Positions 1,618-22,500 of a DNA stretch of 24,769 nucleotides are shown here, piece after piece. The stretch lies in IMG/VR virus record IMGVR_UViG_3300047480_000850, positions 1 to 24,769 of that record, one strand, 5' to 3'. Numbering within the stretch: the first letter of the stretch is position 1; each line of letters starts with the position of its first letter. The translations under genes and the position numbers were made by a program. The notes beneath the pieces are model-generated. The model made no database searches and was not told the origin of the DNA. It saw only the letters and a list, made by a program, of their open reading frames with translations. This DNA is from a virus.

Positions 1618-2070
1618 ATGATCGATGTGAAATTTTTGGAGCAATTCGTAAACATTCAGAGTGCGGTAGAGCCAGAGCCAGATAGTAGGTTTTACATATC
1701 AGAAGTTGCTCGAATCGCGTCATCTAGAATGTATGGTCTAAATCTACCACGGTGTACAGGTAAAACAACTGCTCTTGAAAAATATGCAAATACCCGCTCC
1801 GCATTACGTTTTGATGGTGTGACTTGTAGCTTTGTGAATTCATTTCATAAAATAGGCGGTTTTTACTCTGATCGAACGGTATTAGGTAGTTTTCGAGGGC
1901 AACGAAGTAATGGTATGAAATATCAATGTTGCGTGGCTGATGAATTCAATTTGAATATGCATAAAGAAGGCGTCAAAGAATTTTTCTGGCAGACTATTGT
2001 TGATCTAAATAATGCGAATATGTTGACCAAAGATTTCTATATTCTCTATCTCGGAACTGAACGAGTATGA
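1618..2070 (+). CDS. Small P-loop protein with terminase-like ATPase motifs
   Basis: 150 residues, family not recognised. It carries a Walker-A-like LPRCTGKTT (residues 43-51) that resembles the PRQSGKT form seen in large terminases and related helicase-fold ATPases, and a hydrophobic strand ending in DE (CCVADEF, residues 104-110) that fits Walker B. A VLGSFRG segment near 88-94 resembles the RG-containing strand between these motifs in terminases. The protein ends soon after Walker B, so it would be a minimal or truncated ATPase domain. AAAGG lies upstream of ATG 1618. The stop overlaps the next start (ATGA). Function unknown; ATP binding is inferred. Confidence 0.6.
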   Translation: MIDVKFLEQFVNIQSAVEPEPDSRFYISEVARIASSRMYGLNLPRCTGKTTALEKYANTRSALRFDGVTCSFVNSFHKIGGFYSDRTVLGSFRGQRSNGMKYQCCVADEFNLNMHKEGVKEFFWQTIVDLNNANMLTKDFYILYLGTERV

Positions 2071-2294
2071 TTGACGATAATTTAGGCCCAATTAACCCTA
2101 TGCTTGATTCCGCACCACCCAGAGTGTTTGGTAAGCGGTTTCTAGTCAAAGGATCGACCTTTGATAACGGTGTTGACAAACCATCAATCATGCTTATCAT
2201 TACTGATCTGGTTGAGAAAAATTTCAAAATCAAATTTTATAAGGATGCTGAATCTGCTGCCAGCACTCTTAGACTTCTCGAAGCAGCAAACTAA
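2067..2294 (+). CDS. Hypothetical protein, 75 aa
   Basis: No family recognised. A short soluble protein with a predicted beta-rich middle (KPSIMLIITDLVEKNFKIKFY, residues 39-59) and an Ala/Ser-rich C-terminal helix. It starts at ATG 2067, which overlaps the previous stop by four bases, so it is translationally coupled to the P-loop gene and may act with it. It ends 14 bases before the dsbA start. Coding is supported by the overlap and by being the only long frame here consistent with the operon; no membrane segment or signal peptide is visible. Confidence 0.6.
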   Translation: MIDDNLGPINPMLDSAPPRVFGKRFLVKGSTFDNGVDKPSIMLIITDLVEKNFKIKFYKDAESAASTLRLLEAAN

Positions 2295-2308
2295 AGGAAA
2301 AATTAATT

Positions 2309-2593
2309 ATGAGTATCGTGCAAACTTCCCAAATCAACATGCCCAATGATCCTGAGACATTGAAGACTATCAAGGATGCTCTCTTTGAAATCAGCGCTTC
2401 TATGACTCGTGTAGAGGGCGAGAAAGACTTCCAAAAGAACGCATTGGTTGATTTGGCTGAAAAGACTGAAGTGCCAATCAAGTTTTTAAAAACATGTGCA
2501 TCCATCTACCATCGTCAGAATAAAGATCAGGTAGAAGGTGATAAAGAGGTTGTATTTGAGCTTTATGATGCTATTTTTGGGGATATTTCTTAA
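2309..2593 (+). CDS. dsbA: dsDNA-binding protein DsbA homologue
   Basis: 94 residues against 89 in T4 DsbA. The C-terminal half matches best: FLKTCASIYHRQNKDQ followed by EVVFELYDAIFG corresponds to T4 LLALYHKDNRDV and EVVELYDTVFSK. In T4, DsbA binds double-stranded DNA and is associated with late-promoter regions; here it would be a small helical DNA-binding accessory. A good AAGGA site precedes ATG 2309. The last 23 bases overlap the end of the convergent GIY-YIG endonuclease gene. In T4, dsbA lies near gene 32, so its position beside regA and 43 differs. Confidence 0.8.
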   Translation: MSIVQTSQINMPNDPETLKTIKDALFEISASMTRVEGEKDFQKNALVDLAEKTEVPIKFLKTCASIYHRQNKDQVEGDKEVVFELYDAIFGDIS

Positions 2594-3533
2594 TAGCATA
2601 CCATCCTCTAAAGGGTACAACTTTATCTAAATGGTGGTTCATTTTAATCGGTGACCCGCCATTTTTATATGAAACTCTTAATGCTGATTCCGGTAGCCCA
2701 TTATCATCACAATATTTGATAAAATTTCCGTGGGTTGTGTGTTGCAAAATACCTTGGTCATCGAAAATTTCAATAATTACAGCAGTATTAGAATTTGAAC
2801 CTGAAACCGCTAACCGATGTGATTCTTTATGCGACTCAGACCACTCAGGACAATTGTTATGTTTTGCATCTGATATCTTTTTTCTCTGCTCGTCTGATAT
2901 CGTATTCCCTTTATTTGGGTTTATGTAATCAGGATTTACATCTAACATTGTCATACCTTTATTCCATGGCGGGGATTCGTTTCTGATTTTTTTAAACCGT
3001 GCAATAGTCTCAGGCTTATGGGTTTTACCCTTCATTGAGCCAGGTGTATTATTCAGTTTTCTTGTTTCGGCACGTTTTTGATCCGCATTGTTTTTCGTTT
3101 CAAGTGACATCTTTTTTCGCCTTTTAGCACCTGCGCGAATATTTTCTAATGATGACCCAGTTCTCTTGGGGTATTTTTTACCCCTTAATGGGGATGCGAT
3201 TCCCTTGAGTGGATTATAAGTCTCGTCATATGCCATTTTTGATGCAAATGCTCTGTTAATATAGAGTGGATTGTTTGGCGCATTAACTGCTTTTTGCAGT
3301 TTATTTTCTTTTTCTGTTGCTTCATTTCTAGTGTCAAATGTTTTTAAAATTACAGTTTTGAAAAGATGCGGGTTTAATGATCTTTCTTTAATCCAAATGT
3401 TTTTATATATTTTAGACGATACACTACCATTATAATTTTCATTCAATATCCGATCAACAGAAGTTGATCCGATGTAAAATGGTGGGAGTTTGTTACCACG
3501 ATAGCTGGTAAGATAGACGCAATAAATAGACAT
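2571..3533 (-). CDS. GIY-YIG homing endonuclease, Seg-like, free-standing
   Basis: 320 residues read leftward from ATG at 3533-3531. The N-terminus holds the GIY-YIG pair in divergent form: CVY at 5-7 and YIG at 20-22, followed by an RNEATEKENKLQ helix near 69-80 that should carry the metal-binding Glu. Downstream come several short basic repeats typical of NUMOD3-type DNA-binding motifs (PLRGKKYP, GSMKGKTHKPETIARFKK, PPWNKGM). Such free-standing enzymes cut phages lacking the element and spread with neighbouring DNA. The gene is antisense to its surroundings, between dsbA and 43, overlaps the dsbA 3' end by 23 bases, and has a near-consensus late promoter about 95 bases upstream. AAAGGA precedes the start. 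Confidence 0.88.
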   Translation of the reverse strand: MSIYCVYLTSYRGNKLPPFYIGSTSVDRILNENYNGSVSSKIYKNIWIKERSLNPHLFKTVILKTFDTRNEATEKENKLQKAVNAPNNPLYINRAFASKMAYDETYNPLKGIASPLRGKKYPKRTGSSLENIRAGAKRRKKMSLETKNNADQKRAETRKLNNTPGSMKGKTHKPETIARFKKIRNESPPWNKGMTMLDVNPDYINPNKGNTISDEQRKKISDAKHNNCPEWSESHKESHRLAVSGSNSNTAVIIEIFDDQGILQHTTHGNFIKYCDDNGLPESALRVSYKNGGSPIKMNHHLDKVVPFRGWYAIKKYPQK

Positions 3534-3598
3534 GCTGATAGTTCCTTTTTAACTGTTAGAGTCCTTGGGTATTTGCAGTACCGCGAAGGACATTTTTG

Positions 3599-3626
3599 TT
3601 GACAGTAGACATAAATGGTCTACAAT
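3599..3626 (+). promoter_or_regulatory. Sigma-70-type promoter of DNA polymerase gene 43A
   Basis: TTGACA at 3599-3604, a 16-bp spacer and TACAAT at 3621-3626: a perfect -35 and a one-mismatch -10. Transcription would start near 3633, giving a leader of about 55 bases before ATG 3689. This fits host-polymerase-driven early expression of the replicase. Confidence 0.75.
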
Positions 3627-3636
3627 AGTATTTATT
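3624..3636 (-). promoter_or_regulatory. T4-type late promoter for the GIY-YIG endonuclease
   Basis: The minus strand reads AATAAATACTATT, twelve of thirteen bases of the T4 late consensus TATAAATACTATT. It points at the endonuclease gene starting at 3533. It overlaps the -10 box of the plus-strand polymerase promoter. The first ten bases recur upstream of the second endonuclease gene. Confidence 0.65.
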
Positions 3637-3637
3637 G

Positions 3638-3661
3638 TTTACAGAACTTCTATTCTGTAAA
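3638..3661 (+). promoter_or_regulatory. Leader hairpin of polymerase mRNA, possible operator
   Basis: TTTACAGAA (3638-3646) pairs with TTCTGTAAA (3653-3661) in a perfect 9-bp stem with loop CTTCTA, just inside the predicted transcript. In T4 and RB69 the polymerase represses its own translation by binding a leader hairpin. A similar role here is inferred from position only. Confidence 0.5.
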
Positions 3662-3685
3662 TTTTGTGTAAATTTATGTAAATTT
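3656..3685 (+). repeat. Three tandem TGTAAATTT repeats before the 43A start
   Basis: TGTAAATTT occurs at 3656-3664, 3667-3675 and 3677-3685, with 11- and 10-base periods, ending four bases before ATG 3689. The first copy forms part of the hairpin's 3' arm. No Shine-Dalgarno is visible in this stretch. The arrangement suggests cooperative binding of an RNA or DNA regulator at the initiation region. Confidence 0.6.
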
Positions 3686-3688
3686 AAA

Positions 3689-5200
3689 ATGAACCCAGAT
3701 ATTAACCAGTTTTACACCCATGTGAGTTCCCGATATGGAAAAATCTATTATCGCGGCTACGAACATAAAAATGGGAAGAAAGTACGTGTCCATGGGAAAA
3801 TTCCATTCTCACCGACAATTTACTTTGAGACTAAAGAAGAGAGTGAATACAAAAGCATTTACGGTAAAAATCTGAAGCCTCGCAAGTTCGATACTATACC
3901 TGCAGCACGTGAGTATGTGAAGCAATATAAAGGCACCATAAAGATGTATGGATACGAGCCTAACCGGTGGCAGTACGAATTCATTGCTTTGAACTACCAA
4001 GAACCTATGCAGGTTATGTTGTCTGAGTTAAAGGCTACAGGCTTTGATATTGAAACTCGTGTTGGTGTTAACGGCCCTCCAGGTGTACCTGACCCATATC
4101 TGGCATTGGAAGAAATTACCCACATTGCATTTGAGAATCATGCCACTGGTGAAATGGTGAGCTACACCACTGCACCTATCACGATTATGGAGCATGAGGG
4201 ATGTAAGATGGTTCGGTTTGAAACCGAGGCTGAATTACTTGAAGCAATCATCCGCTATATCCAAGAGGAAGACCCTGATATTATCTATGGTTTCTATTCT
4301 GAATTCTTCGATGTACCATATTTGATTAACCGTATTAATCGCGTATTGGGTGACGATGAGGCTAATCGCCTGTCCCCATTTGGCATCATTGATGAACGTG
4401 AATATGAGATTGATGAGGAAGTGCGCAAAGAATACACAATTGTTGGTCGCACACATTATGACATTCAAGCAATGTACCGGAAGTTTGTTCTTCAAAAGGA
4501 AGAAAAATACAGTCTTGATCATTTAGCCAAAGTCAATCTGGGTGTTGGTAAGCTGGAAAACCCATGCACAACGTTTAAGCAGTTTAGCGAAGCCGAAGAG
4601 CATATTGAAACGTTTGCACAGTACAACGTAATTGACACAAAGCGCATGACTCAGTTGGATAAGGCCAAGGGTTTAATTGCTTTGGGTGTGATGCTGGCAT
4701 ACACGATGAAGTGCTGTTTTGAGGATGTTTATTCGCCGGTTCGGTATTGGGAATGTAGTATCCAGTCGATGCTCTTGAATGAGAAAAAATTCGTAAATAT
4801 TGAACGTCAGAGCAATGGTAATGAGTCGATCCCAGGTGCATACGTCTCTGAGCCAATTCCTGGCCTCTATGCGTGGCTTATCAGCATTGATGCTGCATCG
4901 CTATACCCAAGCATCATGAAGGCTCTAAACCTGTCTCCAGAGACTTTGGTTGGTGTCAAAGAAGGTGTGACTGTAGATGAAATGCTACTTGGTAAGACGT
5001 TGAAAGATTTTGGTATCACCGAAGACTTTACACTGGCTGCTAACGGAGCCATGTTTAGAAAGGATGTGAAGGGAATCGTTCCTCGTGTAGTTGACTTTGC
5101 ATTAGGTGGTCGTAAAATTGCTAAGAACGAAATGTTGCGCTATAAGCAAACGTCTGTGGATATTGAAGAAGAAGCAAAACGCCGAGGCATTGAGTTATAG
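3689..5200 (+). CDS. 43A: DNA polymerase, N-terminal part (gp43A, split family B)
   Basis: 503 residues covering the N-terminal, 3'-5' exonuclease and first palm segments of a T4-type family B polymerase. Visible motifs: Exo I FDIET (D120, E122), Exo II segment GFYSEFFDVPY (D208; the usual Asn of this motif is not conserved), Exo III YNVID (Y312, D316), and polymerase motif A IDAASLYPSIM with catalytic D401. The frame stops at TAG 5198-5200 in the fingers region, after IEL. The missing C-terminal half is gp43B, past the antisense HNH endonuclease. ATG 3689 is preferred over in-frame codons upstream because family homology starts there. The two chains must associate to give an active enzyme; together they have 869 residues (T4 gp43: 898). 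Confidence 0.93.
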   Translation: MNPDINQFYTHVSSRYGKIYYRGYEHKNGKKVRVHGKIPFSPTIYFETKEESEYKSIYGKNLKPRKFDTIPAAREYVKQYKGTIKMYGYEPNRWQYEFIALNYQEPMQVMLSELKATGFDIETRVGVNGPPGVPDPYLALEEITHIAFENHATGEMVSYTTAPITIMEHEGCKMVRFETEAELLEAIIRYIQEEDPDIIYGFYSEFFDVPYLINRINRVLGDDEANRLSPFGIIDEREYEIDEEVRKEYTIVGRTHYDIQAMYRKFVLQKEEKYSLDHLAKVNLGVGKLENPCTTFKQFSEAEEHIETFAQYNVIDTKRMTQLDKAKGLIALGVMLAYTMKCCFEDVYSPVRYWECSIQSMLLNEKKFVNIERQSNGNESIPGAYVSEPIPGLYAWLISIDAASLYPSIMKALNLSPETLVGVKEGVTVDEMLLGKTLKDFGITEDFTLAANGAMFRKDVKGIVPRVVDFALGGRKIAKNEMLRYKQTSVDIEEEAKRRGIEL

Positions 5201-6367
5201 CCAATTTTCTGGAGTAATTTTATCAACTACTTCATAAATTGGCAGTATCACTAAAGGTATGTCATTGTAAAATTCAAAGGTTTGTATATAATTTCTAATA
5301 CATGGTGAAACTTTATAGCTAAAAATTTTCTTAGGAGCGTCAAGACGAATTAACTTTTGAATTACTGAATTGTTAAATTTATCTGGGTGAACTCGTAATA
5401 ATCGTTGAAGGCTAAAAGTAATTTTACCTTCAAAAATAAATGCATGTTTACATGTATTTTCAGATACACCAAACGGCAGTTCATCTAATTTAGGATGTGT
5501 TTCTGTTTGGTTTGTTACCCAATTTTTGTAGATTACTACTCCCTTCCATGGGTTGTCGTATCCATCTCTTGTTTGAATAAACCCATCTGGAATATTTTCG
5601 GTTACTTTAAATCGTTTACTTTCTTTCGTTGTTGGGTTGTAAAAATGATGTGCGCCAGTGAATCTTTCTACTGCAATACTAGAGTGTGATGGGTTGCCGA
5701 TATCAAACCCTTGTGGTATATCTTCAGTATTTGGGATGAAACGAGTTTTATCCGGCTTAGATATGTTATAAATTTGTATACAATCTTTAATACCGTTATC
5801 TGACATCTTTTGTTTTGTTTTATCAGTATGGATTCTACCAACTTGGCATAAAATCACGTCACCGTTTAGATAACGAAGGTCGTCGCGGTCAATTTGAAAA
5901 TTCGTATCAGAATCGGGATAGTGGACTATGACTTTATTTTTCATATGAGTTGACATTTTTTCTAGCTGAGATGCAGTCAGTTTTCGACCTTTGTTTCTTA
6001 GTGAATTGTTTATTGCGATCTGATTTCTAAATTCAGAATATAAATTAGCTTTTATTATTAATTCAGACTCTGTTTTAGCACATCTACCCATTAAATTAAA
6101 TGCGGCTATTGTTGATGGTTGACTCATAGCTTTAGCAAGGATATAATGAGCTATATAATGATTGAATTGAGAAAGATTTGCTCTATTCCAAGGTGCGTCC
6201 TTTATTTTTATAAATTCAGGAAATTTATTTTTAGGTAAGATATGATGGGATTCTGTTGCAGTTCCTTTTGTTTCTTCAAACGCATAACAGTAAAGTAGAT
6301 ACCATATAAAGTAGTCTAAATCTGTTATATGTTTGTTAGCGTAGTGGATTATTTCTTCAGTTTGCAT
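5195..6367 (-). CDS. HNH homing endonuclease splitting gene 43
   Basis: 390 residues read leftward from ATG at 6367-6365. The HNH core is near the N-terminus: ESHHILPK (H41, H42), N64 in NRANLSQ, then H70 and H74 in NHYIAHYILAK, the usual order for phage HNH enzymes. The C-terminal half has repeated units of the type YNxxxK-xxRF-xxxxIPxGF (near residues 200 and 240), like the DNA-binding tails of T4 Mob-type enzymes. It lies antisense within gene 43, overlapping the 43A end by six bases and ending 46 bases before the 43B start. A late-promoter-like element sits upstream. T4-like Aeromonas phages are known to have gene 43 split at an endonuclease insertion; this appears to be a similar case. 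Confidence 0.87.
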   Translation of the reverse strand: MQTEEIIHYANKHITDLDYFIWYLLYCYAFEETKGTATESHHILPKNKFPEFIKIKDAPWNRANLSQFNHYIAHYILAKAMSQPSTIAAFNLMGRCAKTESELIIKANLYSEFRNQIAINNSLRNKGRKLTASQLEKMSTHMKNKVIVHYPDSDTNFQIDRDDLRYLNGDVILCQVGRIHTDKTKQKMSDNGIKDCIQIYNISKPDKTRFIPNTEDIPQGFDIGNPSHSSIAVERFTGAHHFYNPTTKESKRFKVTENIPDGFIQTRDGYDNPWKGVVIYKNWVTNQTETHPKLDELPFGVSENTCKHAFIFEGKITFSLQRLLRVHPDKFNNSVIQKLIRLDAPKKIFSYKVSPCIRNYIQTFEFYNDIPLVILPIYEVVDKITPENWL

Positions 6368-6399
6368 TGTTAATTCTCTTTATGGTGGTTTATTACAGG

Positions 6400-6409
6400 A
6401 GTATTTATT
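6400..6409 (-). promoter_or_regulatory. Late-promoter-like element for the HNH endonuclease
   Basis: The minus strand reads AATAAATACT, identical to the first ten bases of the late promoter before the GIY-YIG gene and close to T4 TATAAATACT. It is about 33 bases upstream of ATG 6367, with AAAGAG as a possible ribosome-binding site in between. The same bases on the plus strand are the spacer between AGGAG and the 43B start. Confidence 0.5.
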
Positions 6410-6413
6410 AAAA

Positions 6414-6519
6414 ATGAAAAGTCTATCTGAAATGACAGACGACGAGTTACGCGCTGCATATAAAGCAGCTAAACGTGAATCTGAAATGAAGAATATTCTT
6501 CAAAATGCGTTAAAAGTGT
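6414..6519 (+). CDS. 43B: DNA polymerase C-terminal part (gp43B), exon 1
   Basis: Starts at ATG 6414 with AGGAG (6398-6402) upstream. It encodes 35 codons plus one base; the residues run from MKSLSEMTDDE through NALKV. Sense resumes exactly where 43A stops: a helical fingers segment leading to Lys34 of polymerase motif B (Kx3NSLYG). Without splicing, the frame would hit TAA at 6543-6545 inside the intron. Joined to 6772-7766 it gives a 366-residue protein. The 5' splice site after T6519 is set by the intron guide sequence: GTGT (6516-6519) pairs with GCAC (6529-6532), with the standard U-G wobble at the cut. Confidence 0.82.
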
Positions 6520-6771
6520 TAAAAGCTGGCACCTTCAGCAAGTAATTGCTGTCGAAAATTGTGTGAATTCGGGGAACATCTAGACCAGAAAATCCCGAGC
6601 CAAGCCTACTATTGTAGGAAGGTGTAACGACTATTCCGAGAGGAAGTACACTCAAGTGAGTGGAAGCGCACAACCCCAGAAATGGGTGATGATATAGTCT
6701 GATCTGCATGGGGACATGCAGCACTAATTCAAAGTGGAGTGAACCTGACGATTTCACTTTAACATTTTTTG
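6520..6771 (+). ncRNA. Group I intron (IA-like, no ORF) in DNA polymerase gene 43B
   Basis: A 252-nt intron. The guide GCTGGCAC (6525-6532) pairs with both exon ends: its 3' half with GTGT (P1), its 5' half with exon 2 CAGC at 6772-6775 (P10). P2 is CAGCAA/TTGCTG at 6536-6551 with a GTAA loop. A CGGG/CCCG stem joins 6570-6573 and 6594-6597. A P6 extension hairpin is at 6605-6618. P7 pairs GACTA (6629-6633) with TAGTC (6695-6699), and P9 is CTGCATG/CATGCAG at 6704-6721. The core text (CGGGGAAC, AATCCCG, GATATAGTCTGA) strongly resembles the T4 td intron. It ends in G6771, the required terminal G. No endonuclease is encoded inside. Splicing restores SANSLYG, the polymerase motif B. Confidence 0.93.
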
Positions 6772-7766
6772 CAGCAAACAGTCTCTATGGCGTTTTCTTG
6801 CAGCAAGGGTTTATGTTCTACGATCCTCGACTAGGTAAGGCTATTACGCTTTCTGGTCAGTACATCATTATGAAGGTCGGTACTCACTGCGACAAGCGGT
6901 TTAACGAATTCTTCAAAACTGACAATCTAACATACACATTCTATAGTGATACGGATAGCTGCTATTTGAATATGAAGCCAGTGGTTGATAAGTATTGGAA
7001 AGATCAACCAGACTTGAAGATTGTGGATGCGCTTGATAAATTAATGGAAACAAAACTGCGACCATTTATCAATGAAGCTACTGATGAAATCGCGCGTGTG
7101 CAAAACCATTTTGATAAGACTATTCACTTTAAACGTGAAGCAATTTCTTCATCTGGTTTCTGGTGTGCCAAGAAAAAGTATGCAATCAAAGTCTATGACA
7201 ATGAAGGTGTGCGATACCCAGATGGTGATTACAAAATCATGGGTATTGAGGTGGTTCGATCCAGTACACCACAGTTAGTGCGTGACAGATTGAAAGAAGC
7301 AGTTAAGCTGATTATTGACGGTAAGTTGCAAGAGACACGTGATTTTGCAGTGGATGTGCGCAAAGAGTTTAATACCTGCAACATTACAGATATTGCTTTC
7401 CCAGGCGGCGCAAACAATCTGGCAAAGTGGCGTGATCCAAACAGGGTTTATATCAAAGGTACCCCAATCGCTGCTAAGGCATCTCTCATGTACAACAAAC
7501 TACTGGCAGATGTCAAAGATGGTTATGAAAAGTACGATGCGATTGGTGAAGGTGACAAAATTAAGTACATCTATATTGATGAGCCTAATCCAATTAGAGA
7601 GAAAGTAATTGCGTTTGTTGATGATCTACCGGTGGAGTTTAATCTGCACAAATACGTGGATCGTGCTACGCAATATGAGAAGACATTTAAGAATCCATTG
7701 AACAACATTTTTAAAGCTGTTGGATGGGAACTTGAAGAGGCAGTAACGTTAGACGAGTTTTTTTAG
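6772..7766 (+). CDS. 43B: DNA polymerase C-terminal part (gp43B), exon 2
   Basis: Exon 2 begins CAGCAAAC; with the last base of exon 1 it reads TCA GCA AAC, giving KVSANSLYG, the dNTP-binding helix of family B polymerases. Motif C YSDTDS follows with catalytic Asp at residues 95 and 97 of spliced gp43B. Later come the thumb and a C-terminal LDEFF, resembling the short sliding-clamp-binding tail of T4 polymerase. Spliced gp43B has 366 residues; it holds palm residues that pair with D401 of gp43A, so neither chain can polymerise alone. TAG 7764-7766 is 12 bases before uvsX, and AGAAGGAAG between them serves uvsX. Confidence 0.93.
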
Positions 7767-20333: not shown

Positions 20334-21196
20334 CACAAATTAAAACAGTAACCGAAGCATACTTGGCAATGTACCAAGTTATTACCGAAGAACTTCACCC
20401 AGATATTAAGACGATTCTTGATTCTGAAAGTCTTCCTACGCATCATATTTTTAAGGCAGTGTCAAAGAAAATAAGTGATCTTGGTAAGCAAGGTATTGAT
20501 AGTGGTATTGAAGATGGAAAGCCTAAAAAAGGGTCTTCACGTGCTGTATATTTCCCCAAGGATCATAAAGAAATTACAGTCGATGGTACCAAGACCAAAA
20601 CCCCAACTGCAATTAAAATTGCTTTTGAAGGTCAACTCGACAAACACCATGGCGAAGATACTCTGTTAGGTCAAGACCAAAACAGTCTTGAATCTGATCA
20701 CCATATCAATCGCTCTTATGGTGTTTTAGGGTGGGATCATGAAGGGCATTACAAGACCAATCACCATGGAGTTTTGGCTCCAGTTTTTGAGTCACATTCT
20801 GAAGGCCATCATCTTGAAATGGGTCGTGTTGAAAAATACAATGCAAAAGATTTGGCAAACCACACGAAGAATGAAGATTTTCCGAAGGGTCTGACGCATC
20901 ATCAAATTATAGATTCTATGGAGCATGAGCATAGGTCGGCACATGGTCAACATTCTTATGAACCAAAAGATCATGACAAAATTGTTGAGCATCCATATGT
21001 CAGTAATATGATCAGTATGATGCATGATTCTGGTATGCACCCAGGCGATCTTGCTCCACGTAATATGGGTATATATGTACATCCAGTAACTGGTCATCGT
21101 CATCCAGTTATTATTGATTATGGGTTTTCAAATGATATTGCTAAGAAGTATCGTAAAGCTCGTCATAACATGGCTTTTGGTAAGAATAACTGGTAA
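20330..21196 (+). CDS. His-rich protein-kinase-like protein
   Basis: 288 residues with the main protein-kinase signatures in order: a Gly-loop-like GSSRAVYF (68-75), a VAIK-type strand TAIKIAF with Lys96, a catalytic-loop HPGDLAPRNMG (Asp240, Asn245), and IIDYGFS, a DFG-like metal site with Asp263. The spacing is compatible with a compact kinase or aminoglycoside-phosphotransferase fold. About 10 percent of residues are His, many in pairs, unusual for a kinase and perhaps metal-binding. The C-terminus is basic. It lies between virion genes and overlaps the PAAR gene start (TAATG), so it may be packaged or injected, or modify a virion partner; a pseudokinase scaffold is the main alternative. 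ATG 20330 has AGGATT upstream. Confidence 0.65.
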   Translation: MTQIKTVTEAYLAMYQVITEELHPDIKTILDSESLPTHHIFKAVSKKISDLGKQGIDSGIEDGKPKKGSSRAVYFPKDHKEITVDGTKTKTPTAIKIAFEGQLDKHHGEDTLLGQDQNSLESDHHINRSYGVLGWDHEGHYKTNHHGVLAPVFESHSEGHHLEMGRVEKYNAKDLANHTKNEDFPKGLTHHQIIDSMEHEHRSAHGQHSYEPKDHDKIVEHPYVSNMISMMHDSGMHPGDLAPRNMGIYVHPVTGHRHPVIIDYGFSNDIAKKYRKARHNMAFGKNNW

Positions 21197-21480
21197 TGAG
21201 TGCAGTAGCATTACTTACATCGATATGCACAGGTCACGGTGGGTTTCCACCTAGACAGGCTGTTTCTGCGTCACTTAATACCTTCATTGAAGGTGTAGGT
21301 GTACAGGTCGTAGGAGACGCTTGGGCAGAGCATAGTGATGGTAAATCAAGTCACGCATCAATACTGGCTACAGGATCACCCAAAACCTTTCTGGGCGGTC
21401 TTCCAATAGGTCGTGTAGGTGATGCTATAGCATGTGGTAGTTTAGTCGCTACAGGCGCTTTGAGGACAGAAATAGGATGA
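21196..21480 (+). CDS. PAAR-domain tail-spike tip protein (gp5.4-like)
   Basis: 94 residues: a single PAAR repeat protein rich in Gly and short beta turns (STGHG-like CTGHGGFPPR near 12, VQVVGDAWAEHSDGKSSHASILATGSPKTFLGGLPIGRVGDAIACGS). PAAR proteins form a metal-stabilised cone that sharpens the tip of the tail-spike trimer (gp5.4 in T4) or of type VI secretion spikes. Cys and His residues (C12, H14, H46, H53, C80) could bind the metal. It overlaps the kinase-like gene in TAATG and the next gene in ATGA. The gp5 spike itself is not in this window. Confidence 0.82.
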   Translation: MSAVALLTSICTGHGGFPPRQAVSASLNTFIEGVGVQVVGDAWAEHSDGKSSHASILATGSPKTFLGGLPIGRVGDAIACGSLVATGALRTEIG

Positions 21481-22181
21481 GTAATTTAGTTTTAGAAGCA
21501 ATGCGAAATGGTGGGTTGTATAACCCTATTCGATCTGCAGTCACCGGCACGTTTGGTAGCTTTCAAATACCGAGTGTTTCAGAGCTACAGGTATTGGCTA
21601 CTGGTCAGAGTTTAATTACAGGTCTACCCGTTCCACCTGCACCACAGATTGTTGCTGCTCAAGAGTCTTTAGTAACTGCTTACAATAAAGTCAACGAGTT
21701 TTTAGGTCACACCGATAGAATTTCTGGCGTCGATCTAACAGGCAATACAACACTTGCAACTATTGCAAAAACTGTTGGTGCTGCGCGTAATGTAAATGGC
21801 GAACTAAGTTGCTCAAGTGTTCTCGCTGCTTTTGGTGCGCTCACTAAGGCAGATGAATATATTCAAAAAATTAATGAGTTTATTCAAAAAGTCGAAGAAT
21901 TCAAAGCAAATGTGGCTGGCAGAATTATCGAAACAGTTTTGACTGCAGTTGGGTTAGTCGCTGTACTGGCTGAACAAATTGCTAATGATGTCGGTGCGTT
22001 TGCTGCAGCACAGCTACGGTTAGCAGAAGAGTTTGTTGCTAACTCTATTGCAAGCCTTGTGGAAGATGAATGTATGAGTGCGATTCTCACAAATGTGATG
22101 ACGCAAGAAATGAAAAATGTTGTAAATAAACAAATTGATGAATCAGCAGCGCAACTAAGGAAAGCTAGATATGGATACTAA
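21477..22181 (+). CDS. Putative tail/virion protein, 234 aa
   Basis: Starts at ATG 21477, overlapping the PAAR stop; GAGGA lies 12 bases upstream. After a short N-terminal region with Pro-rich VPPAPQ near 52, the protein is almost wholly helical: long Ala/Val/Glu-rich stretches such as IQKINEFIQKVEEFKANVAGRIIETVLTAVGLVAVLAEQIANDVGAFAAAQ. Part of that (AVGLVAVLAEQIA) is hydrophobic enough to insert in a membrane or pack in a helical bundle. No catalytic motif. Its position right after the spike tip suggests a tail-tube-interior, tape-measure-like or tip-associated role, which is inference. Confidence 0.55.
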   Translation: MSNLVLEAMRNGGLYNPIRSAVTGTFGSFQIPSVSELQVLATGQSLITGLPVPPAPQIVAAQESLVTAYNKVNEFLGHTDRISGVDLTGNTTLATIAKTVGAARNVNGELSCSSVLAAFGALTKADEYIQKINEFIQKVEEFKANVAGRIIETVLTAVGLVAVLAEQIANDVGAFAAAQLRLAEEFVANSIASLVEDECMSAILTNVMTQEMKNVVNKQIDESAAQLRKARYGY

Positions 22182-22500
22182 AGAAGAAGTTTTTGCTAAA
22201 TTAGATCAAATTAAAGAGGCATGGGCGGGTTTGGATCGCAACCCAAGTGCAGAGACTATTGCGAGTAACGATAAATTACGCGATATATGGAAGAAAACTC
22301 TTTCTATGTCACATGATGAGTATCTTGCAAAAGTCAAACGTGGACACACAGCACGTGGAGAAAGTAGTGCAGCAATTGATGCTGTTATGTCACAAAGATA
22401 TGCTGATCCTGATGCCGACGACGCGCATAGAGAAAAAATGAAGAAGGGGCTTAAAGACGGTTCTTTAGCCCCTAAGCAACATGCATACCAAAATCAGTAA
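22171..22500 (+). CDS. Hypothetical protein, 109 aa
   Basis: ATG 22171 overlaps the previous gene by 11 bases, with AAGGAAAG upstream. Charged, helical protein (TKEEVFAKLDQIKEAWAGL; KRGHTARGESSAAIDAVMSQRYADPDADDAHREKMKKGL). No family recognised. Last gene of the plus-strand block; its 3' end contains a hairpin (22445-22473) and overlaps the convergent 55-residue gene by seven bases. Probably a minor virion or assembly protein by position. Confidence 0.55.
   Translation: MDTKEEVFAKLDQIKEAWAGLDRNPSAETIASNDKLRDIWKKTLSMSHDEYLAKVKRGHTARGESSAAIDAVMSQRYADPDADDAHREKMKKGLKDGSLAPKQHAYQNQ
22445..22473 (-). terminator. Possible terminator for the minus-strand block
   Basis: AGGGGC-T-TAAAGA (22445-22457) pairs with TCTTTA-GCCCCT (22462-22473), a 12-bp stem with one bulged base and loop CGGT. 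On the minus strand it is followed a few bases later by a run of six T (plus-strand A run 22433-22438). It lies just past the 55-residue minus-strand gene, inside the end of the plus-strand gene. Confidence 0.45.

Follow-up and report, generated by a model that had tools for sequence, protein, structure and literature searches.

A split T4-type DNA polymerase gene with an ORF-less group I intron in its motif B codons and a freestanding antisense HNH endonuclease gene

For T4 relatives, group I introns in gene 43 have already been published, that of Aeromonas phage 25 in 2010. This intron, 25.g43B, carries no homing endonuclease gene, and a freestanding endonuclease is predicted to serve it; a putative gene 43 group I intron has also been listed for phage JSE (PMC2993671). 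The phage 25 record (DQ529280) annotates 43A, a GIY-YIG endonuclease gene and a 43B "split by group IA2 intron", and the 43A and 43B products co-purify, with polymerase activity (PMC2988022). We found similar gene 43 introns in Aes508, phiAS4, Aes144, UP87, G2285, PSD2002 and PSTCR6, and in these named phages we read the cut as NSLYGA|L, 24 nt downstream of the cut described here. The G2285 record (an Escherichia phage, L005 in our collection) states "unable to determine intron/exon boundaries", and in the PSTCR6 record (L167) exon 1 is annotated as a hypothetical protein; both are consistent with a cut at NSLYGA|LGN. A second group of relevant systems comprises the collaborative pairs of the cyanophage psbA intron with F-CphI and of T3-type phages, in which an ORF-less intron adjoins a freestanding endonuclease gene (PMC3984707). 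Cleavage of the intron site by the endonuclease was demonstrated for those pairs and is proposed for the one described here; both the host gene and the nuclease family differ.

The DNA analyzed here, referred to as the window, is the whole stretch of 24,769 nucleotides of IMG/VR virus record IMGVR_UViG_3300047480_000850. It has the layout of such a pair, as an ORF-less intron (positions 6520-6771) and a freestanding endonuclease gene (5195-6367) interrupt one polymerase gene. Like phage 25, the window has 43A, an endonuclease gene and 43B in this order, and motif B of its 43B is interrupted by a group I intron without an ORF. In phage 25, however, which is a member of the Straboviridae, the cut lies 24 nt further downstream, the intron is 347 nt long, and the GIY-YIG endonuclease gene is on the polymerase strand. 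Providencia phage PSTCR6 (MW057858) is similar in having 43A, an antisense HNH gene whose product is homologous to that of the window (27% over 84%), a short 43B exon 1, a group I intron and exon 2, but its intron is at the T4-type site NSLYGA|L, and its record has no such annotation. The Acinetobacter phages Lazarus and AB-Navy4 share the 43A/43B split and an antisense HNH gene of the same family, but there is no Rfam group I intron match at that place, and several additional ORFs lie between the halves. Two IMG/VR loci, L013 and L015, also have a split polymerase gene and an ORF-less intron in motif B, and in L013 an antisense HNH gene is also present, its stop overlapping that of 43A; the introns of both loci are distant in sequence, and the P1 of these introns (AGGU/GCCU) sets the cut 2 nt further upstream, which is why we rejected identity with the window site. 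An intron of JSE at the window site was likewise rejected, as the first polymerase CDS of JSE has only 402 aa, which places the break upstream of motif B. The window cut lies 5 nt before the Asn codon, and its intron is the only one that we found at exactly this position. The preliminary description of this DNA, made from its letters alone, knew of no intron at this site of gene 43. This holds for the exact nucleotide position, which appears to be new, but its argument for novelty falls with the introns of phage 25, JSE, G2285, PSD2002 and PSTCR6, and the split of the gene by an endonuclease gene had escaped it. The best overall explanation, with a probability of roughly 0.9, is an ORF-less IA2 intron in 43B of a split T4-type polymerase gene, which probably travels by collaborative homing.

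The intron itself, its splice sites and its location in motif B of a T4-type family B polymerase had been correctly recognized. The covariance-model search that had been proposed together with this assignment gave a single match for the window (cmscan, Rfam 15), namely RF00028 at positions 6510-6721 of the plus strand, with 76.1 bits and an E-value of 5.8e-18, spanning the whole model (1-253). Exon 1 ends with GUGU (6516-6519) and exon 2 begins with CAGC (6772-6775), and the guide GCUGGCAC, consisting of GCUG (6525-6528) and GCAC (6529-6532), pairs with all eight bases of the joined exons GUGU|CAGC, as had been claimed. P1 is thus GUGU/GCAC (6516-6519:6529-6532), with a U·G pair at the 5' cut (U6519 with G6529), P10 is CAGC/GCUG (6525-6528:6772-6775), and the omega-G is G6771, the final base of the 252-nt intron on the plus strand. 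Joining 6519 to 6772 gives AAA GTG T|CA GCA AAC AGT CTC TAT GG and thereby restores KVSANSLYG, whereas the unspliced frame reads KVLKAGTFSK and then stops; the preliminary description had foreseen both. The conserved core from P3 to P8 is present, with P3 at 6559-6564:6668-6673, P4 at 6569-6574:6593-6598, P6 at 6599-6601:6621-6623, P6a at 6605-6609:6614-6618, the guanosine-binding helix P7 (GACUA/UAGUC) at 6629-6633:6695-6699 and P8 at 6675-6677:6684-6686, and further helices are P2 (6536-6540:6547-6551), P7.1 (UUCC/GGAA, 6634-6637:6642-6645), P7.2 (CACUC/GAGUG, 6649-6653:6658-6662), P9 (6704-6710:6715-6721) and a 3' hairpin (6731-6736:6755-6760). By its extra P7.1 and P7.2 helices, a feature of T4-type introns, and its homology to the phage 25 intron, which is annotated as IA2, we assign the intron to this type. 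We aligned it with 14 other ORF-less introns located at motif B of family B polymerase genes, and RNAalifold predicted 44 consensus pairs for these 15 introns, 35 of which show compensatory changes in at least one sequence. The covarying pairs span P3, P4, P5, P6, P6a, P7.2, P8, P9 and the 3' hairpin, while the P7 strands are invariant across the alignment. The window intron forms 42 of the 44 pairs. Its thermodynamic folding is only modestly better than that of shuffled sequences (z −2.2), which is to be expected, because the ribozyme is pseudoknotted. With this core and these splice sites, the intron very likely undergoes guanosine-dependent self-splicing.

The polymerase is encoded in three pieces on the window DNA, all on the plus strand. 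43A (3689-5200, with the start ATG at 3689 and the stop at 5198-5200) encodes the N-terminal half of a split family B DNA polymerase, 503 aa with the exonuclease domain and motif A (PF03104, 2e-20; PF00136, 1e-13; PHROG 262, 9e-124). Exon 1 of 43B (6414-6519), supported by an alignment of the spliced translation to the related contig L003, starts with ATG, is preceded by AGGAG at 6397-6401, and encodes MKSLSEMTDDELRAAYKAAKRESEMKNILQNALKV plus the first base of a Ser codon. Exon 2 (6772-7766; PF00136; PHROG 262, 6e-109) completes motif B, encodes motif C (DTDS) and the polymerase C-terminus, and is 91% identical to L003. In L003 (QNALKTGANSLYG), motif B is uninterrupted, and L003 as well as two more IMG/VR contigs with 91% identity in the C-terminal part have an uninterrupted gene with neither endonuclease nor intron. 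Among named phages, the closest relative of this C-terminal part is Synechococcus phage BUCT-ZZ01, with 47.7%. Gene 43 is thus split into two open frames that have their own starts, with the break in the linker before motif B. Exon 1 has only 106 nt because the antisense endonuclease gene already splits gene 43 at 1.2 kb further upstream, and splicing therefore restores a 43B of 366 aa rather than a one-piece polymerase. As the situation is analogous to that of phage 25, 43A and 43B very probably form a two-subunit polymerase. One could also imagine that positions 5201-6413 are spliced out as a second intron of another kind, which would result in a one-piece polymerase from a single mRNA. The linker is shorter in the closest uninterrupted relative, so that a longer stretch could in principle be removed, but no second Rfam match was obtained anywhere in the window, for which reason a second intron between 43A and 43B was rejected. 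In addition, 43B starts with an ATG of its own, preceded by AGGAG, the halves of phage 25 are separate proteins, and the heads and tails of the split recur in other loci (see below), all of which makes a second intron very unlikely. Even less probable, and close to negligible, is the idea that the polymerase gene is decaying or defective and the intron in it a dead remnant. The two deviating consensus pairs could be taken as signs of decay, but the intron core and the splice sites are intact, exon 2 is open and conserved as described above, and the related contig L001 has the same arrangement with an unchanged intron.

The gene between 43A and 43B (5195-6367, minus strand) encodes a freestanding HNH homing endonuclease of 390 aa, and its stop abuts the 43A stop. 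It matches PHROG 655 (homing endonuclease, 1.7e-19) and PHROG 12434 (HNH endonuclease, 2e-11), and it has no Pfam match at 0.001. Homology to known homing endonucleases is thus combined with a location inside an interrupted gene, and relatives also adjoin gene 43B in the Acinetobacter phages and in PSTCR6. The region upstream of 43A encodes a clamp-loader subunit and a RegA-type repressor, and UvsX and a DnaB-type replicative helicase are encoded downstream of 43B. Just upstream of 43A, a second antisense homing endonuclease-like gene (2571-3533, minus strand) encodes 320 aa with a GIY-YIG-like N-terminus (PHROG 10820, 314). We propose that the intron RNA would excise itself after transcription by two guanosine-dependent steps, and that the spliced 43B would pair with the separately translated 43A to form the polymerase. 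The antisense HNH protein would act on uninterrupted alleles, cutting them at motif B or close to it, and in the ensuing repair the intron would be copied along with the endonuclease gene and the split ends. The HNH gene is probably what moves the intron, and endonuclease-driven co-mobility (collaborative homing) of the two is the best single model, to which we give slightly better than even odds.

This arrangement is not confined to the window. Pattern scans of IMG/VR for a P7 3' strand followed by NSxYG codons gave about 15 distinct family B polymerase loci in which the intron lies some 3 to 7 nt upstream of the Asn codon; the position is further upstream in L054 and approximate in L029, L044, L066 and L076. 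Rfam confirmed the introns in the tested loci except for L013 and L076, which were below threshold. Pattern matches in L009-L012, L014 and others were without polymerase frame and were dropped as chance matches, and intron flags on L128 and L143 were false, as their frames are open through motif B. In all 14 intron loci with sufficient upstream sequence the polymerase is split, in the same linker and roughly 30-45 codons before the intron, and in most of them the gap holds an endonuclease gene. Homologs of the window HNH gene are found in this slot in L013, L023, L024, L029, L044 and L068, VSR-like genes, recognized by inspection, in L021, L033 and L054, while the remaining intron loci have either a remnant or no endonuclease gene at all; altogether, three endonuclease families occupy the slot between the polymerase halves. 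Searching with the region that follows motif B gave 76 loci without intron, of which 71 are uninterrupted and five are split. A naive Fisher test of the association between split and intron gives 1.3e-12, which is inflated, as the loci are related, and has to be read as an indication rather than as a calibrated probability. PSD2002 has the intron without the split and the five loci have the split without an intron, and thus neither element requires the other. The 43A tails resemble each other across split genes (IEEEAKRRGIEL in the window, VEEEMKRRGIT in L021, IEAEMKRRGLE in L140), and so do the 43B heads (SEMTDDEL, LSDDEL, MSDDEL, LSNEEL). Such ends occur in split genes of distant polymerases and are missing from uninterrupted relatives such as L003; the T4 linker is longer and uninterrupted. 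From the look of these tails and heads, a cassette may carry coding ends besides the endonuclease gene. That this cassette has spread between polymerases that are only about 30-45% identical, and that the endonuclease target is the intron site, we propose tentatively and at odds well short of even. Further interruptions inside 43A were seen in the intron-bearing loci L021 (3644-4471) and L066 (1229-2352). In L055, L058, L064, L067 and L069, polymerase-like frames of another type start right after GATATAGTC upstream of NSFYG or NTLYG, and L055 and L058 look intron-like.

The window intron is one more case in a known class, at a new nucleotide position, and the finding itself is ordinary in kind; the collected loci, in which gene split, endonuclease gene and intron are paired time and again, matter more and are where the interest lies. 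They suggest that introns and gene-splitting endonucleases have settled together in motif B of phage family B polymerases, repeatedly and with unrelated nucleases, which would make this motif a hot spot. This offers many natural pairs for testing collaborative homing, and it accounts for the broken appearance that phage polymerase genes often have in annotations.

The closest relative of the window intron is not another gene 43 intron but resides in the DnaB-helicase gene of Klebsiella phage Roth32 (85%, tree support 0.99), and the window intron therefore probably arrived independently. This kinship is also what could be expected if the intron splices but has moved alone, either through reverse splicing or together with an endonuclease gene that the intron has since lost, the HNH gene being an unrelated later invader that cuts elsewhere. 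The intron of PSD2002 in an unsplit gene is in line with this, and endonuclease turnover has been proposed as an alternative origin of such loci (PMC10448857). However, a split in 14 of 14 intron loci compared to five of 76 loci without intron is hard to obtain from independent events alone, and we rate this alternative somewhat below even. Regarding the favored co-mobility of intron and HNH gene, the comparison with L001 is of interest: at about 1% divergence on both sides, the two contigs have only four differences in the 5.4 kb from 1720 to 7078, a tract that takes in both endonuclease genes and the intron. This is what a recent gene conversion would leave, but it is only suggestive, because another tract, at 20501-22500, is also identical.

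Two observations concern the endonucleases themselves. The sole difference between the HNH genes of the window and L001 is at position 6367, where the start codon ATG of the window is CTG in L001, and expression of the gene may be in the process of being lost there. The C-termini of the HNH protein of L024 and of the GIY-YIG proteins of L005 and L017 share a zinc-finger-like stretch, CPHCG..G...M.R.HF.NC, with 60-64% identity over 23-25 aa, and these unrelated nucleases in one slot look as if the DNA-binding part had been kept and the nuclease swapped.
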